Source of the DNA: a virus
DNA length: 21,452 nt
Reading direction: 5' to 3' (one strand)
Virus record (IMG/VR): IMGVR_UViG_3300012931_000079
Span: 1 to 21,452 of that record
Numbering within the stretch: the stretch's first letter is position 1; every line of letters begins with the position of its first letter. Below the pieces are notes generated by a model, which saw only the letters and a list, made by a program, of their open reading frames with translations, ran no database searches and was not told the origin of the DNA. Shown in pieces: positions 4,050 to 20,105 of this stretch. Position numbers and translations under genes: made by a program.

Positions 4050-4757
4050 ATGGACACCAAACCTACATTTTCAGAGCTATTGGACACGGCTCAGGGCATA
4101 CTCAAGAGTGTGTATGGCCCCAACAGCCACTACACAACCACCTATAGCCAGTATGAACGGGGGTACTGGGGTCAAATCCCTAATTGGATGGGAGAGTTCC
4201 TATCAGGACACACCAATACCCAAATACTAGACATCGGACCTGGATGGGGGGGGCTATCCTGCTTCACCAAACTGTTAGTCCCATGTGACATCATCGCCAT
4301 TGAACGCAAGTTCTACCTAACACCACTGGTCACTAGACTACTAGATCTGAGCCTAATCAACGGAGATGTAGAGAGGCAGGCCGAACTGCTCTGGTTGTGT
4401 GCCAAGTTTGGATGTGTAATCTTTACGGAGGTAATTGAGCACCTGAATTTCCATCCACAACCAACACTGGAGATGGTTCATGAGATCATGCTCCCTGGTG
4501 GGAGACTATACGTGTCCACTCCTGATGCGAATAGTTCATGGGGTAAGGCTCCGGGGCAGAAGGATTTGGATGAGGCGCCCAAGTTTGATTCAAAGGTTCA
4601 CAGTTTCGATAATCCTGCATGGGTTGATGCTCATACCCACATCTATACAACAGTGGAATTAAAGGGGTTGTTGGTTGCTTGTGGATTCAAGATAAGGCGG
4701 GAGAGTTCTACCAACAACTCCTGGGGTAGACATATCCAGATTGAAGCTGAGGCTTGA
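4050..4757 (+). CDS. Class I SAM-dependent methyltransferase
   Basis: This 235-residue Rossmann-fold methyltransferase has the SAM-binding motif I at 59-68 (ILDIGPGWGG), an acidic residue after the second strand (Glu85), motif IV at 123-132 (VIFTEVIEHL) and the LPGGRLYVSTPD strand at 148-159. This is the layout of the Methyltransf_11/23 groups, which act on small molecules, sugars or proteins. The N-P-P-Y or D-P-P-Y motif of adenine DNA methyltransferases is absent, so a restriction-type role is not supported. The start follows GGGAGG by 10 bases. Transcription is very probably driven by the consensus promoter at 3968-3996. Its substrate is unknown; the phage also encodes a glycosyltransferase, so modification of a surface glycan is one possibility. 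Confidence 0.85.
   Translation: MDTKPTFSELLDTAQGILKSVYGPNSHYTTTYSQYERGYWGQIPNWMGEFLSGHTNTQILDIGPGWGGLSCFTKLLVPCDIIAIERKFYLTPLVTRLLDLSLINGDVERQAELLWLCAKFGCVIFTEVIEHLNFHPQPTLEMVHEIMLPGGRLYVSTPDANSSWGKAPGQKDLDEAPKFDSKVHSFDNPAWVDAHTHIYTTVELKGLLVACGFKIRRESSTNNSWGRHIQIEAEA
4415..4427. promoter_or_regulatory. 13-bp palindrome site, one mismatch, in methyltransferase gene
   Basis: TGTAATCTTTACG lies inside the coding sequence, where it encodes V-I-F-T of methyltransferase motif IV. Confidence 0.55.
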
Positions 4758-12791: not shown

Positions 12792-13178
12792 ATGCCGTCT
12801 AGATTTGTGAGTGTCCTGGTGGTTCTCACTGCAAGCCTGCTGATGGCTGCGGCCCCTACCCTCATCATTCCCCCAACTGTCAATTTGACTGATGTAGAGA
12901 TCAATTGGACAGCCGCTCCTACCAGTTCTGAAAAGGTGTGTGCTGAGACTATTTGGCTGGACCATCTGGCCTTTAGTGTGGCGGGGGACGCCCGGACTGT
13001 CACGGCTACAGATGCACAGGGTAGTCCAATAACTTGGATGACCGCTATACCATTGTCGGCTAACCAGTTAACTCTCATAGCTCTGCCATCCAAGGGTATT
13101 AGGATGCAGGGTGGGTTTTATCTGACTGCTAGTGGATCTGGAGTAGTGTACCAGTTCCGCGGGAGGGTAAAGCGGTGA
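12792..13178 (+). CDS. Predicted exported protein (128 aa)
   Basis: The N-terminus MPSRFVSVLVVLTASLLMAA is a Sec signal peptide, with cleavage likely after A-A-A near residue 21. About 105 mature residues follow, beta-rich, with one Cys (about residue 50), ending in a basic R-G-R-V-K-R. AGGAG lies seven bases before the ATG. The stop overlaps the GTG of the fibre gene. There is no recognisable domain. It is the first of three genes with N-terminal export-like sequences inserted between capsid and connector genes, so a shared role with the fibre-like proteins is likely. Confidence 0.65.
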   Translation: MPSRFVSVLVVLTASLLMAAAPTLIIPPTVNLTDVEINWTAAPTSSEKVCAETIWLDHLAFSVAGDARTVTATDAQGSPITWMTAIPLSANQLTLIALPSKGIRMQGGFYLTASGSGVVYQFRGRVKR

Positions 13179-14668
13179 AAACTGTAATCTTTACACTTCT
13201 GCTATGTGCCTCTCTGGATGGGCAGATAACTCAGGTCCCCAGTTCTAGTGGAGGTGGTGGAAGTGGGTCTGTGACAAGTGTGGATCTCGTAGGAACATCC
13301 GGCCAATTGACGGTTACCGGGACTACTCCCATAACCTCTTCTGGGTCGTGGACGATATCGATACCTAACCCATTTGTGCTGCCAGGCCTTGCCACCATTG
13401 CTGCTAGCACTACTGGTGGGGCGGGGTTGAGGTTAACGTCGGGTGTGGCTCCTACGGCCCCAACAAGCGGAGATTTCTGGAATCTGTCTGGAGTGTTGCA
13501 GTACTACGATGGCGCCGCTACCAAAACGTTGGTGACAAAGGATTCGGCGGGGGATGTTGCGGCGACTTCTTTTACATCTACTGCAACTGGAACTACGGAG
13601 TTGACGTTTACTGAAGGCTCAACTCCCGCTAGTCTTCCGGCATCGGGCAAACAGAAGATGTTCGTGACTACAGGGCACGCGCCAACCCTGCTAGATTCGG
13701 CGGGAGATACTGTAGCTTTCCTGATGGATAGCGGGACTCTGGCAGCAGCTAGAATGCCTGCATTCACAGGGGATGTCTCTACGGCTGCTGGTGCAGTGGC
13801 CACTACCCTAGCGACCGTGAGCACCACTTATGGCACGTGTGGGGATGCTACTCACGTGTGCGCCGTGACCACTAATGCTAAAGGTTTGGTGACGGCTCAG
13901 TCGGCAGTGGCGATCACAGCATCAGGAGGGGATGTCCTGACCCCAGTGTCCCAGGGGTATGATGATATGTGTGGCGGGGTGACCACTCCTGGGGTTGGCC
14001 GCTTGAATTGGGGAGGTGCAAATGGTGTGGCTGGAACTGCGGGGACGCTGGGGATGGCGTATGAGACAGGGTGGGCTTGTGGCCTGACGGTTACGTCGGC
14101 TGCGACAAGCAGCACCAGTTACTTTATCGGTATTGCTAGACAGGCATATACTCCAGGCTTAATGCTATATACGCGAACGTCAGGATGGGATACTACCTTC
14201 TTGGTAAAGACTGGCAGCAGTGTATCTAGTATAAAAGCGTATGTTGGGACTGCGGGATCAGTGGAGAGCAACCCCTACACTCTGCTAACTGGCAGTAACT
14301 CCCTTGCTGCTGTGGGAGCGGCTGCGGGGATGCTTATAGACACCTCCCAGACATCTACATGGAGAGTGCAAAGTTGTGGGTATCCGGGTGGAGTTATCAC
14401 TTGTAACAGTGTGGATACCGGGGTATCAATAGCGGCAAATACGGTTTATAGGTTGAGGCTTAGGTCCACGACTTCTGGAACTCTGCTCGGTAGTGTTAAT
14501 GGTGGGACTGAGTACAGTATTACCATTGTATCTCCAGCACAGGGGGCTACTGCGGAAGTGCCCGTCGGTCTAGGAGTGGAAATATCTACCTTGGAAGATG
14601 TAGCTAAGTCTTTAACACTTTATTATGTAGGGTGGAAGCTCACTGGGCAGGGATTTACTATCCCATAG
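13175..14668 (+). CDS. Tail-fibre-like protein with a signal peptide
   Basis: This 497-residue Gly/Ser/Thr-rich protein starts with GTG (GGGAGG upstream, stop of the previous gene overlapping). The first 17 residues, MKTVIFTLLLCASLDGQ, look like a signal peptide. Typical fibre sequences follow: S-V-T-S-V and T-G-T-T-P-I-T-S-S-G-S-W (about 32-60), then F-T-G-D-V (about 198) and N-A-K-G-L-V-T-A (about 230). The C-terminal half (from about 255) looks like a lectin-type beta-sandwich with paired cysteines. Phage fibres bind the host surface but are normally made without export signals, so this one is odd. A perfect palindrome lies in codons 3-7. Confidence 0.65.
   Translation: MKTVIFTLLLCASLDGQITQVPSSSGGGGSGSVTSVDLVGTSGQLTVTGTTPITSSGSWTISIPNPFVLPGLATIAASTTGGAGLRLTSGVAPTAPTSGDFWNLSGVLQYYDGAATKTLVTKDSAGDVAATSFTSTATGTTELTFTEGSTPASLPASGKQKMFVTTGHAPTLLDSAGDTVAFLMDSGTLAAARMPAFTGDVSTAAGAVATTLATVSTTYGTCGDATHVCAVTTNAKGLVTAQSAVAITASGGDVLTPVSQGYDDMCGGVTTPGVGRLNWGGANGVAGTAGTLGMAYETGWACGLTVTSAATSSTSYFIGIARQAYTPGLMLYTRTSGWDTTFLVKTGSSVSSIKAYVGTAGSVESNPYTLLTGSNSLAAVGAAAGMLIDTSQTSTWRVQSCGYPGGVITCNSVDTGVSIAANTVYRLRLRSTTSGTLLGSVNGGTEYSITIVSPAQGATAEVPVGLGVEISTLEDVAKSLTLYYVGWKLTGQGFTIP
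13183..13195. promoter_or_regulatory. 13-bp palindrome site, perfect, at fibre gene start
   Basis: TGTAATCTTTACA begins at base 9 of the fibre gene and encodes V-I-F-T within its signal peptide. Confidence 0.7.
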
Positions 14669-14675
14669 GAATTTT

Positions 14676-16586
14676 ATGAGAATGGTGATACTATGTCTAC
14701 TCCTGTTCACTAAGGAGGCAATATCTAGCCCAACATGCAGTGCTGGGGCAGTGCAGGTGTTCAAGGTTGGGGTGGCTGGGGCACTTGATGGCAGTGGGTC
14801 ATCGGGTTCTGGCACCCTGACCTATGCTTGGTCCCAGACGGCTGGGGCTACTGCTACTATCACAGGCGCGAGCACGGTTTCTCCGTCAATCACTACTCCG
14901 TCGTTCGGGCAGTACACATTTCAACTGTCCGTAACAGACACCAACGGCACTACTACCTGTACAGTGACCGATGGGGCCGTACCAGTCAATGCTTATGATG
15001 TGGTGGACATGACCACTATCGACCCTACAAACGGAACCACAATCCAGAAGGTTATTGGGAGGCAGGTACGATGGTCGCTTGAGACTGGGGTTAATCGTTG
15101 GCCCTTTTGGCACACAGCCAGAAAGAATATGGCGACAGTTTTGGAGACTGCCCACACAACAGGGGGAATGTATGACCCGGCGTGGTTGAGCACTACGCAG
15201 GTGGGCACCGTAACGCTGGTGCCGTCTGCTGCCAGCAACACACTATCTACGGTTACTGGGAGTGGCACTTCATTTCAAACTACTTTCTGTGGTGGAGGTA
15301 CGACATGGGATAGTAAGACTATATTTTTAGCTCACGTCACTAATCCTACAGGGCAGGTTGGAAGATATCGGGCACAGCCTGGAACCTGCACTAGTGACAC
15401 GGAGATGACCATTTACTACGGCATTTCTACCTATGAACTTCCCACTACTACTTCCGGTATAGCCTATGGAGCATATGACTACACTACAGGGGCACCGAGT
15501 GCGTCCTTATATGGCTCCACTCCGGAGAATTATTATGATCGTGTAATCGGACTGTACGCAATGTATTACAGCACAGGACTAACCACGTATATCACTCAAG
15601 CTCGTGCAGAGGCATCCTTGTGGATGAAGAACCCCACACAGGATTATGGCTGGGCGTGTAGGCCGTATGCAAACGGCAATGCTAATTCTGTTTCCTGCTA
15701 CATGCAGGCTCGCACATTCTCATTAGGGGGACTATTTTTGTGTGGGTTGGATAGTGGATGCGCAGCAGACGATGCCTGGGATACTCTAGATAATTGGTTT
15801 GTGACATTGCTCACATACATTGAGACGCTCGACCCAGCCTGGGGAATGTGGGATCAGAGAGATACGTCATACCACCTGCAATTCCTAGCCTTGTATGCAG
15901 CATTGCATCCAGACTCTTCCGTGCGAACTAGTAGTTTGACTAAGCTGTCCACCTTTATCAGCGGGTTTTGGACCACCACTCGTGCTAGTGGGTCCTGGGT
16001 GGATACTACCGGCAATGTGTTGGTTTATATGCTGGCCATGATATCCCAGTCAATGGATTTGGCAGGCTGGACGCTAGCTGACTCAAATCCAACGGCTTCG
16101 GCTTTGGCCTATAGTTATGCTAAGGATGGGGTGGATTGGATCATAGCTAATTCGTACATTACGGCGACAGGGTATCGAACATTCCAACCAATCATCAATG
16201 CCTCATGCCCACTACCAACATTAACAAGTGCCTGTTCTGTCGAAAGTGTGGAGGAGGTACGAGGGTGGAGTATGCCCATCCCCAACGCCATTGCAAGGGT
16301 GTGGGAGAGGACCGGCACAGCATCCTATAGGACACTCCTGATAGACCAGATATCTTCTCAGTGGTCTAATACTGAGGGGGAAACTGGATATGATGGTACT
16401 TACCTAACAGGGTATGTATACCCTGGGGGATGGTACATGATTTCTGCTGGTATGCGGGATAAGTGGTGGGGGGAGCCTTGGGGATGGACGGGTCAGGGCA
16501 ACGCAATGGCCGCAATCTATACTGCCCCCACAGTATCAACTTACACATTCACAGGGGGAACCCTGTCAGGTGGAGTATTAAAGTAG
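14676..16586 (+). CDS. Putative exported PKD-domain tailspike or carbohydrate-active protein
   Basis: This protein has 636 residues. A short hydrophobic N-terminus (MRMVILCLLLF, then T-K-E-A-I-S-S) may be a weak signal peptide. Residues about 30-98 match a PKD/REJ-type beta-sandwich, with D-G-S-G-S-S-G-S-G and T-Y-A-W-S-Q-T-A-G. The rest (about 105-620) is rich in Trp and Tyr, with repeated helical pairs such as A-R-A-E-A-S-L-W-M and L-Q-F-L-A-L-Y-A-A-L. This suggests an alpha/alpha toroid as in many glycoside hydrolases and polysaccharide lyases. It may degrade or bind a host surface polysaccharide. No catalytic residues can be named. AGGA lies six bases upstream of the ATG. It is the third inserted gene after the capsid gene. 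Confidence 0.55.
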   Translation: MRMVILCLLLFTKEAISSPTCSAGAVQVFKVGVAGALDGSGSSGSGTLTYAWSQTAGATATITGASTVSPSITTPSFGQYTFQLSVTDTNGTTTCTVTDGAVPVNAYDVVDMTTIDPTNGTTIQKVIGRQVRWSLETGVNRWPFWHTARKNMATVLETAHTTGGMYDPAWLSTTQVGTVTLVPSAASNTLSTVTGSGTSFQTTFCGGGTTWDSKTIFLAHVTNPTGQVGRYRAQPGTCTSDTEMTIYYGISTYELPTTTSGIAYGAYDYTTGAPSASLYGSTPENYYDRVIGLYAMYYSTGLTTYITQARAEASLWMKNPTQDYGWACRPYANGNANSVSCYMQARTFSLGGLFLCGLDSGCAADDAWDTLDNWFVTLLTYIETLDPAWGMWDQRDTSYHLQFLALYAALHPDSSVRTSSLTKLSTFISGFWTTTRASGSWVDTTGNVLVYMLAMISQSMDLAGWTLADSNPTASALAYSYAKDGVDWIIANSYITATGYRTFQPIINASCPLPTLTSACSVESVEEVRGWSMPIPNAIARVWERTGTASYRTLLIDQISSQWSNTEGETGYDGTYLTGYVYPGGWYMISAGMRDKWWGEPWGWTGQGNAMAAIYTAPTVSTYTFTGGTLSGGVLK

Positions 16587-17540: not shown

Positions 17541-18019
17541 TGGCTGTATATCCGATACGACCGGGACCGGTAAGAACCACCACACAGAGGGGTGGTCCCA
17601 ACATGGAAGTTGGGTCCATGATCTCAGTGAGCGTGGACACTACTGTCCTTCAGTCTATTGAGAATATCAGCGGTGATGATCTACTGCCGATCATCCTGGA
17701 CGCCATTGAGCCGTCAATGGAGATAGCCAAGTCTCAATGGCCGGTCCTCACCGGGGCCAGCATAGAGAGCTTTGAAGTTACTGGGGAAGTTACTGGGGAG
17801 AGGAAAGCCCATGGTCAGTTACAGGTGGGGGGGGCTAAGTTAATCTCAGACTCCAGGAATGACAAGCATATCGACTATGCCCCCTTCATTGAGTTCAACG
17901 GATCTCCTACAGGACTGGGCAAGGATGCCGTATTCAACTCATTTGTTGGTAGGGCTGATGAGATGAAACGGATGATTCGAGATGGAGTGCAAAGGCTGAT
18001 AGCAGAGAGGATGAAGTAA
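17540..18019 (+). CDS. HK97 gp10-like neck / tail-completion protein
   Basis: This 159-residue protein contains A-K-S-Q-W-P-V-L-T-G-A-S and Y-A-P-F-I-E-F-N, close to the pattern of HK97 gp10-type proteins, in which a substrate-like P-x-x-T-G-x-L-x-x-S is followed by Y-A-x-x-x-E. It ends in a helix. These proteins sit at the head-tail junction. The start at 17540 overlaps the previous stop (TAATG); ATG 17603 would remove 21 residues and is possible, since the first 21 residues look unstructured. A 12-bp tandem duplication inside the gene repeats E-V-T-G. Confidence 0.65.
   Translation: MAVYPIRPGPVRTTTQRGGPNMEVGSMISVSVDTTVLQSIENISGDDLLPIILDAIEPSMEIAKSQWPVLTGASIESFEVTGEVTGERKAHGQLQVGGAKLISDSRNDKHIDYAPFIEFNGSPTGLGKDAVFNSFVGRADEMKRMIRDGVQRLIAERMK
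17774..17797 (+). repeat. 12-bp tandem duplication in coding sequence
   Basis: GAAGTTACTGGG occurs twice in direct succession (17774-17785 and 17786-17797), adding an extra E-V-T-G to the gp10-like protein. Exact identity suggests a recent slip event. Confidence 0.8.
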
Positions 18020-18405
18020 TGAGCAGCCATGTAGCTGGGGTGGTGGATTTAATTCAAACGGGGCTGTCTAGCCTATCATTCGCGGACATAAGCCCTGACC
18101 CAATTCCGATAAACGCCACGCTGCCGTACATCACTGTGAGTGAGGCTATGGCGAAGGATGTACAATCACTGACCGGTCCCAGCGGTGCAACGTACTCAGT
18201 GATGCGGATCTCCTGCTGGAGTGGTGACTACGAAGAGGCCAATGACCTACGCAGTCTCATCAAGGATCTTCTGGGTAACTACACTGGAGAGGCTGGAGAC
18301 TACACGGTCATGGGTACCAACCACTACCAGGACCGGGAATTGTATGACGGTCTAACCCAGAAGTACCAACTGATAACGTCCTACTCCATCTGGTGGACAG
18401 AATGA
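18019..18405 (+). CDS. Tail terminator / completion protein, DUF3168-like
   Basis: This 128-residue protein has a TAATG overlap with the gene before and an ATGA overlap with the glycosyltransferase after it. The layout is an N-terminal helix, P-Y-I-T-V-S-E, a strand with M-R-I-S-C-W-S, a helix E-A-N-D-L-R-S-L-I-K-D-L and a final Q-K-Y-Q-L-I-T-S-Y-S-I-W. That is the lambda gpU/DUF3168 pattern of proteins that cap the tail tube and join it to the head. Confidence 0.7.
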   Translation: MSSHVAGVVDLIQTGLSSLSFADISPDPIPINATLPYITVSEAMAKDVQSLTGPSGATYSVMRISCWSGDYEEANDLRSLIKDLLGNYTGEAGDYTVMGTNHYQDRELYDGLTQKYQLITSYSIWWTE

Positions 18406-19436
18406 CTACCCAAACCTATCCTGCGGGAACTACCTTTGAGTATGGGTCAAGTACTTGGAGAGGTCATGACCGGTTCTTCTGCTACGACTGCCCCTTTGAC
18501 ATCTTCAATGAGGCTACAATGATTGACCACTGCCGTAGGAATGGACATGGGGTGATAGTTCAAGATATGACTGAGGAGTCATTCATTGAGCATGAAGCTC
18601 CACTGCCCCCCATTGGTGTAAAGATTACACTTGGGTACATCACATGGAATACTCGTGGTCCGAGTGTGGATGGGGTTAAGGGGTTACTGGCAGAGGCAGA
18701 CCGGCTTCGCCGTCTAGGTCAGGTAGTTGAATTGGTCATCCTGGACAATGGCAGTTCTGATGGCACTCCCGAAGTCATCACAGAAATGCTCCGAGATGTG
18801 CCCGGTACTGAACTGATTCGCAATGTGCGCAACTTCGGTATCAGTGTAGGCCGTAATCAGATCATTGATGCTGCCCTGGACAGGAAATCCAAGTATCTGT
18901 TGATGATGGATGGGGATATCCAAGTGGTGCCCCTATCCACCTACGTGATGATTCAGTACCTTGAGTGCCACACAGGACTTGGGTGTATAGGTGCGGCATC
19001 CTCTAACTACACCAGAGAGCCTCACCGCGCCAGCAAATACCTGTTTGATATCCCCGAGATATCAGTGAAGAGTAACATCCCCATAGCGTGGACCCAGTAT
19101 GGGCTGTTCCGGTGCAGGATGTTTGAGCTAGGTGTGAGATTTGATGAGGATGGACCATTTGGGGAACCTGGATGGGGGTATGAGGATGACGACCTGTACA
19201 TCCAAATGGTGGCCTCCGGGTGGGAGAGTAGGTACTTCAACCGAATGTGCTACCTTCACCGTAACATCAGGTCATCGTGGCCTAGCTTGAGGGAGTCCGG
19301 GGTAGATGTCAGGAGCACATTTAAAGCCCGGAAGTCCTACATGTTGAATAAGTGGAAGAGGCGAGGGGTGGACTCCAACTTGCTGGCTAGGATTGACAAC
19401 CAGAGTATTCCGGTGGAGATGGATCATGGCAGATAA
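18402..19436 (+). CDS. Zinc-finger family 2-type glycosyltransferase
   Basis: This 344-residue protein starts at ATG 18402 in an ATGA overlap with the tail terminator gene; a GTG at 18393 is in frame but less likely. The N-terminus has a C2H2-type finger (Cys27, Cys30, His43, His49). A GT-A fold follows from about residue 75: a first strand, then V-I-L-D-N-G-S-S-D-G-T, R-N-F-G-I-S-V-G-R-N, and the metal-binding M-D-G-D. Further on are G-x-G-W-G-Y-E-D-D-D-L, the usual catalytic-base region, and a C-terminal helix. Such enzymes move a sugar from a nucleotide-sugar to an acceptor. Position in the tail operon suggests glycosylation of a virion protein. The zinc finger on a glycosyltransferase is unusual. 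Confidence 0.8.
   Translation: MTTQTYPAGTTFEYGSSTWRGHDRFFCYDCPFDIFNEATMIDHCRRNGHGVIVQDMTEESFIEHEAPLPPIGVKITLGYITWNTRGPSVDGVKGLLAEADRLRRLGQVVELVILDNGSSDGTPEVITEMLRDVPGTELIRNVRNFGISVGRNQIIDAALDRKSKYLLMMDGDIQVVPLSTYVMIQYLECHTGLGCIGAASSNYTREPHRASKYLFDIPEISVKSNIPIAWTQYGLFRCRMFELGVRFDEDGPFGEPGWGYEDDDLYIQMVASGWESRYFNRMCYLHRNIRSSWPSLRESGVDVRSTFKARKSYMLNKWKRRGVDSNLLARIDNQSIPVEMDHGR
18617..18629. promoter_or_regulatory. 13-bp palindrome site, perfect, in glycosyltransferase gene
   Basis: TGTAAAGATTACA with flanking G and C making a 15-bp palindrome. It encodes V-K-I-T just before the first strand of the glycosyltransferase fold. Confidence 0.7.
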
Positions 19437-19668
19437 ACCTCTGATATTCACCCCAAGCCAGGACGATATTGACAGGTTAAATGGATACAGAGTGGGGCCT
19501 GACCTGTGGGCCAGTAAGTACAAAAACTACTGTTGCCTAGAGTGCCAGTATGCCACAATATTCAAGGAGAAGATTGTAAAACATGTCAGTGAAGGTAATC
19601 ATCCGTGGGGATTCCCTTCAGGGCACGTGGAGACGGAAGAGGACAACTCAGAACCAACCTACGGTTAG
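19426..19668 (+). CDS. Small C2H2 zinc-finger protein (80 aa)
   Basis: It starts at ATG 19426, after GGAG and inside the last codons of the glycosyltransferase gene. Residues Cys37, Cys40, His53 and His59 have spacing C-x2-C-x12-H-x5-H, identical to the finger at the start of the glycosyltransferase upstream. The flanking Y-K-N-Y-C-C-L-E-C and H-V-S-E-G-N-H resemble F-C-Y-D-C and H-C-R-R-N-G-H there. The tail is acidic. It may be a partner or a split-off copy of that domain. It lies before the tail tube gene. Confidence 0.7.
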   Translation: MADKPLIFTPSQDDIDRLNGYRVGPDLWASKYKNYCCLECQYATIFKEKIVKHVSEGNHPWGFPSGHVETEEDNSEPTYG

Positions 19669-19679
19669 GAGATAAGACA

Positions 19680-20105
19680 ATGAGCACTATCGCGATGGTA
19701 TCTAACGGAACACTGCTGCAGTATGGAGCGTACGCTAGCACCACTACATTCACCACTGTTCCGGAAGTGACCAAGTTGAGCGGTCCAACTATCAAGTTTG
19801 ACTTGCTGGACGCCACCAGCCATGACTCCACTGGGTACTTCCGTGAGTGGGTCCCTGGACTGGCAGATGGAGACAACATCTCGGCAGACATGCACTGGAA
19901 ACCGAGTAACACTGTCCACAAGGAGCTTCGAACGGACAGCTACGCCAGAAATCTAGGAGCATTCCAGGTCGTGTTCCCCGATACGACCGACAACACAGTG
20001 ACAGGTGGAACCTATGTGGCCTCCATTGCCCCCAAGGCGGATATCGGGACTCTTCTGGAGGCGTCACTGACACTAAAGACCACGGGCCAGCCTACTTGGT
20101 CCTAA
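19680..20105 (+). CDS. Major tail tube protein
   Basis: This 141-residue protein starts at ATG 19680, eight bases after GGAG; an in-frame ATG at 19605 lies inside the zinc-finger gene and is rejected. Features are a beta-rich sequence, N-G-T-L-L-Q-Y-G, an I-K-F-D-L-L-D-A-T-S-H segment and an F-R-E-W-V-P-G-L-A-D-G-D loop. V-V-F-P-D-T follows later. This is the pattern of small siphovirus tail tube proteins, in which D-x-T-x-x-D/S is followed by a G-L-x-D-G motif. It stacks as hexamers to form the tail tube. The tail chaperone genes follow, as expected. Confidence 0.75.
   Translation: MSTIAMVSNGTLLQYGAYASTTTFTTVPEVTKLSGPTIKFDLLDATSHDSTGYFREWVPGLADGDNISADMHWKPSNTVHKELRTDSYARNLGAFQVVFPDTTDNTVTGGTYVASIAPKADIGTLLEASLTLKTTGQPTWS

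Follow-up and report, generated by a model that had tools for sequence, protein, structure and literature searches.

Homologous C2H2-type fingers on a putative glycosyltransferase and its small neighbor at the tail terminator-tail tube site of uncultured phages

Two adjacent genes in the tail module of an uncultured tailed phage encode proteins with what is, by profile comparison, one homologous C2H2-type finger domain. One finger is fused to a glycosyltransferase of the GT2 family, and the other lies in a protein of 80 residues. The DNA analyzed here, referred to as the window, is the whole of a virus record of 21,452 bases. We propose, with moderate confidence, that the insert is a virion-glycosylation cassette in which the finger acts as a protein-docking module for a GT-A enzyme and a small adaptor.

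The gene pair and its neighbors, with all features located within them, lie on the plus strand. The left neighbor encodes the tail terminator (18019..18405; PF11367, E 6.3e-9; phrog_347, E 1.9e-7) and the right neighbor a lambda-type tail tube protein (19680..20105; PF16461, E 1.9e-7; phrog_158, E 2.6e-17) with GGAG upstream of its start. These matches bear out the placement of the pair between tail terminator and tail tube given by an earlier reading of the DNA made from its letters (the sequence-only reading). The first gene encodes the finger-bearing enzyme of 344 residues (18402..19436), and its start overlaps the stop codon of the terminator gene (ATGA at 18402). The gene for the small finger protein (19426..19668), defined by its translation and an alignment with 10 homologs, overlaps the end of the glycosyltransferase gene by 11 nt and is preceded by GGAG about 8 nt upstream. 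In lineages with the finger, the insert is found between terminator and tube or directly ahead of the tube. In four cultured phages that have a homologous tube protein, the terminator and tube genes are directly adjacent: Streptomyces phages Dubu and PHTowN, Paracoccus phage Shpa and Paenibacillus phage PG1. The two genes are about 100 nt apart in Thermobifida phage P1312 and flank the gene for an unrelated protein of 112 residues in Chymera. Since the two genes abut in most of the cultured relatives checked, the glycosyltransferase and finger genes constitute an insertion at a defined position in the tail module. Elsewhere in the window, a class I methyltransferase gene (Methyltransf_23; 4050-4757) is located between the endolysin and terminase genes.

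The first protein matches Glycos_transf_2 (PF00535) with 52.8 bits against a curated cut-off of 23.3 (E 5.7e-14). Its GT-A catalytic domain covers residues ~72-330 (18615..19391), as judged from invariant residues, and structural matches span residues 56-336. An alignment of 19 sequences locates the DxD motif at D170-G-D172 (18909-18917) and an acidic pair at E261-D262 (19182-19187); D115, D170, D172, E261, D262 and H286 are invariant throughout. Because these residues are retained, this enzyme of the GT2 family is expected to be active. Foldseek searches with its AF2 model returned GT-A enzymes with E values down to 2.4e-11, and the best VIA match had a Z of 19.4 (rmsd 3.6, 242 aligned residues). 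The nearest solved structures are GT-A enzymes including polypeptide GalNAc-transferases, cellulose synthase and K4 chondroitin polymerase; their Z values are tied among many GT-A enzymes, and thus donor and acceptor cannot be read from the matches. The Escherichia coli K4 chondroitin polymerase (profile match to the window's enzyme, E 5e-19) and the polypeptide GalNAc-transferases have the same fold, DxD and acidic catalytic motif with structural Z values of 18-19, yet they are only 8-17% identical to the phage enzyme, and their matches are confined to residues 56-336 and leave out the finger. Similarity to the TET-associated DNA glycosyltransferases (TAGTs) falls below the curated threshold, PF20691 scoring 12.6 bits against a cut-off of 27.5 (E 0.13 in the window; E 0.0099 in the best relative). 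Among 12 related contigs, the enzyme at the finger site is the only GT2 gene found on most.

The finger of the glycosyltransferase (W19 to H49; 18456..18548), delimited by ligand conservation in homologs and by the model, reads C27-x2-C30-x12-H43-x5-H49. That of the small protein (W28 to H59, followed by P60-W61; 19507..19602), delimited by an 11-sequence alignment and hhalign, reads C37-x2-C40-x12-H53-x5-H59. Reading frame, residue numbers and spacing were checked for both, and the motifs, residue numbers and coordinates of the sequence-only reading proved exact to the residue. Its description of the two spacings as identical is true within the window but not across the family, in which Cys-His spacing ranges from 12 to 16 and His-His spacing from 4 to 5. 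A chance origin of the motifs was rejected on three grounds: the rarity of the exact C-x2-C-x12-H-x5-H pattern in shuffles (frequency 5e-5 for each protein), the conservation of the ligands in homologs, and the confinement of the pattern to this locus. A looser C2H2 pattern is matched by 21 of the 1,107 distinct genes called on the fetched loci, 20 of them glycosyltransferase or small-protein rows of the terminator-tube locus and the remaining one an antisense ORF; because some rows represent near-identical contigs and a number of the overlapping small genes escaped the gene caller, this count speaks for confinement to the locus and not for independent events.

All four ligands are kept in every small protein aligned (11/11) and in every finger-bearing glycosyltransferase (10/10); homologs without the Cys and His residues, which the earlier reading had put forward as a counterargument to its own claim, were not among them. 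In the small proteins, which are 30-53% identical to that of the window, the sole invariant columns are W28, C37, C40, Q41, T44, H53, H59, P60, W61 and P64. The ten finger segments of the glycosyltransferases (26-51% identical) have C27, C30 and H43 as invariant columns. None of the ten lacks the fourth ligand, but it is shifted by one position in L015, L019 and L044, giving a His-His spacing of 4. Three lineages have a Cys-His spacer of 13-16 residues instead of 12. In L044 and L019 the finger is part of a larger fusion, and these two proteins are 34% identical overall while keeping all four ligands. Each protein has a single finger, with a net charge of about -3 to +5 and a near-neutral helix. 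The small protein ends in a [DE]-P-x-Y motif (19651..19662), which the homolog alignment shows in 10 of the 11 proteins, L015 being the exception; this end is possibly a short docking peptide.

The relationship between the two fingers is supported by hhalign, which aligns the glycosyltransferase-finger alignment with the small-protein alignment over 41 columns (probability 95.1, E 3.2e-8), including a Trp about 8 residues ahead of the first Cys. When run over 13 whole related contigs, a profile of the glycosyltransferase finger found one or two places in each and no others. These were the glycosyltransferase finger (E 8e-12 or better) and the small-protein finger (E 1e-5 to 1e-10), the latter detected in most of the contigs that encode it. 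In the window itself, this profile found the glycosyltransferase finger only. The profile alignment supports a shared or duplicated domain, the latter as the sequence-only reading had suggested.

Structural models place both fingers in the beta-beta-alpha order of a classical C2H2 finger. In the AF2 model of the enzyme (pLDDT 89.6), a strand at 22-26, a short strand at 33-34 and a helix at 37-47 surround the ligands and are followed by the GT-A domain. The model of the small protein has strands at 34-37 and 43-44 and a helix at 47-56, with lower confidence than the enzyme (pLDDT 68.7). Structure prediction had been proposed as a check on the motifs, and by secondary-structure order they withstand it in both models; together with ligand conservation, the predicted fold argues that the C2H2-type motifs are genuine, one of them on a GT2 enzyme, and both would be expected to bind zinc. 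A Foldseek search of the small-protein model against the PDB gave no match at E <= 0.001, so its fold assignment relies on sequence and secondary structure. The Pfam family zf-H2C2_5 is matched by 5 of the 11 small proteins (best E 0.0027) and not by the window's own. The sequence profile of the small proteins gives weak alignments to the fingers of CTCF and ZFAT (best E 0.019), and VIA matches ZFAT finger 2els with a Z of 2.2 over 30 residues.

Relatives of the enzyme on viral contigs are 58, 55, 51, 46, 45 and 38% identical to it. The order terminator, finger-glycosyltransferase, small finger protein and tail tube is found in the window and in L002, L003 (whose contig ends inside the tail tube gene), L004, L006, L011, L030 and L015. 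A different arrangement is found in L044 and L118, where the small finger protein is encoded upstream of a fusion of a finger with two glycosyltransferases. L019 has the same kind of fusion, and a search of its site for the small finger protein found none. In L031, L032 and L033 the small finger protein still directly precedes the tube, and no GT2 gene was seen between terminator and tube. The site is occupied instead by sugar-family genes: MptE-like, methyltransferases including FkbM, GT9-like and DUF6716-like, some of them below the Pfam cut-off. Two of these three contigs were tested for a GT2 match and a second finger, and neither was found. In these contigs, the site (L031 2905-4902, L032 2184-4163, L033 3-2440) resembles a hotspot where genes for surface sugars accumulate. 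In L016-L018, two glycosyltransferases but neither the finger nor the small protein are encoded between terminator and tube, so that the finger is dispensable for the function of the site in these phages. The two are separate genes (L016 5360-6828, L018 922-2390), the second ~32% identical to the window's enzyme. A tblastn search of 50,697 phage records with both proteins, the L044 fusion and the L016 enzyme returned no match, and a search of genome contigs gave only two weak GT2 matches and thus identified no host.

In the proposed mechanism, the first gene would supply a metal-dependent GT-A (GT2) glycosyltransferase with an N-terminal classical C2H2 finger. The fingers of the enzyme and of the small protein would attach to the same partner, or to each other by way of it, and the docked enzyme would then glycosylate a phage structural protein while the tail is being made. 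The likeliest acceptors would be the adjacent tail tube protein or another virion protein. The sequence itself shows the enzyme family with its conserved catalytic residues, the finger domain common to both proteins and its restriction to the locus; zinc binding, docking and acceptor are inferred. This docking role is suggested by the tail-module site, by the retention of the small finger protein as the enzymes change, by the single near-neutral fingers and by a precedent in mycobacteriophages, which attach sugars to capsid and tail tube proteins by means of their own glycosyltransferases, as outlined in two papers that both cite Freeman et al. 2023 (PMC12363180, PMC11600133). Counted against it are the finger-less enzymes of L016-L018, the pLDDT of 68.7 for the small-protein model and the tail tubes themselves, in which an alignment with cultured phages lacking the insert revealed no lineage-specific insertion that would point to an acceptor site. 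Neighboring genes need not act upon one another's products. A broader version, in which phages evolved a eukaryotic-type finger into a transferable docking tag for protein glycosylation, carried on varied glycosyltransferase arrangements and on a dedicated adaptor, that directs enzymes to a single virion protein as the tail is assembled, is put forward tentatively.

DNA binding is the best-known role of classical C2H2 fingers, and those of the phage could instead bring the enzyme to phage DNA for anti-restriction glycosylation, or the small protein could be a nucleic-acid-binding regulator. A finger protein of an archaeal virus, AFV1p06, does bind DNA (PMC3541406), and the window's enzyme and its relatives weakly resemble TET-associated glycosyltransferases, at E values of 0.0099 to 0.13 that fall short of the cut-off, which would fit a DNA substrate. 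However, the single finger per protein and its near-neutral helix are unlike tandem DNA-binding arrays, the locus lies within the tail module, and no thymidylate-synthase-type gene turned up on 12 fragmentary contigs of related phages. A search of 12 fragmentary contigs for TET/JBP oxygenases was likewise without a match, as was its control set. DNA binding by such fingers is less likely than protein docking, and we regard the nucleic-acid role as improbable. The recruitment idea of the sequence-only reading, which had allowed for either a nucleic acid or a virion protein, therefore leans toward a protein partner, given the locus, the single near-neutral fingers and the persistence of the small protein beside other sugar-type genes.

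The arrangement of the genes bears on two further possibilities. Homologous fingers encoded by adjacent, overlapping genes could pair, and a direct fusion of finger and glycosyltransferase is seen in L044, L118 and L019, as might be expected if the finger were a structural or oligomerization element, for example one joining the enzyme to the small protein, with no recruiting role. Such an element is hard to reconcile with L031-L033, where the small finger protein is kept without a finger-bearing glycosyltransferase at the site (and, in the two contigs tested, without a GT2 match or second finger), or with L019, where a fingered enzyme is encoded and no small finger protein was found at the site; a purely structural finger is thus possible but rather unlikely. 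The small protein might also be the acceptor or carrier, modified by the enzyme before it joins the virion. It is the immediate neighbor of the enzyme, with an overlapping gene in most lineages, and it contains several Ser/Thr residues as well as the conserved [DE]PxY motif at its C terminus. That it has no invariant Ser, Thr or Asn outside the finger core, that L015 is without the Tyr tail and that no small protein was found in L019 make this role very unlikely. Docking of the enzyme to a virion protein is the reading that we prefer.

Several known systems resemble parts of this locus. The mycobacteriophage enzymes reported to modify capsid and tail tube proteins (Che8 gp110, Corndog gp38 and that of Myrna; Freeman et al. 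2023 via PMC12363180 and PMC11600133) are also phage-encoded; the passages on them in these papers mention no zinc finger, whereas the window's enzyme, judged from its sequence, has a finger, a small finger partner and a terminator-tube site. Classical eukaryotic-type fingers such as those of CTCF and ZFAT share the C-x2-C-x12-H-x3-5-H pattern and the beta-beta-alpha order. In AFV1p06, from the archaeal virus AFV1, the fourth ligand is replaced by Glu (PMC3541406). The phage fingers differ from both in being single in each protein, with one on a glycosyltransferase. Prokaryotic fingers of the Ros/MucR type have a C2H2-type motif in common with those of the window; however, the Ros finger has a Cys-His spacer of 9 residues within a larger domain (PMC9779718), and all members of the phage family have 12-16. 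By its sequence, the Cys-His spacing of 12 in the window is of the eukaryotic type and not that of Ros/MucR.

Neither phage glycosyltransferases nor classical fingers are new in themselves. A search of open-licence papers for phage glycosyltransferases with C2H2 fingers found none, and in the phage records and papers searched we did not find the fusion of finger and enzyme, the finger common to a small partner, or the fixed site beside the tube. To our knowledge, how phage glycosyltransferases choose their protein acceptors is a largely open question. Because a conserved finger is common to the enzyme and its very small partner, and both are always encoded near the tube gene, this question becomes testable with two small proteins. 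If the docking role is true, C2H2 fingers in bacterial viruses would gain a function beyond gene regulation.

Large variable genes are also found between the major capsid and connector genes (window 13175-16586; L003 42-2189; L011 3-2795; L031 133-1077). They encode a PKD protein in the window, a 715-residue protein in L003 and Ser/Thr-rich repeats of the 'SMSTFSGSL' type in L011 and L031, and could be alternative glycan acceptors.
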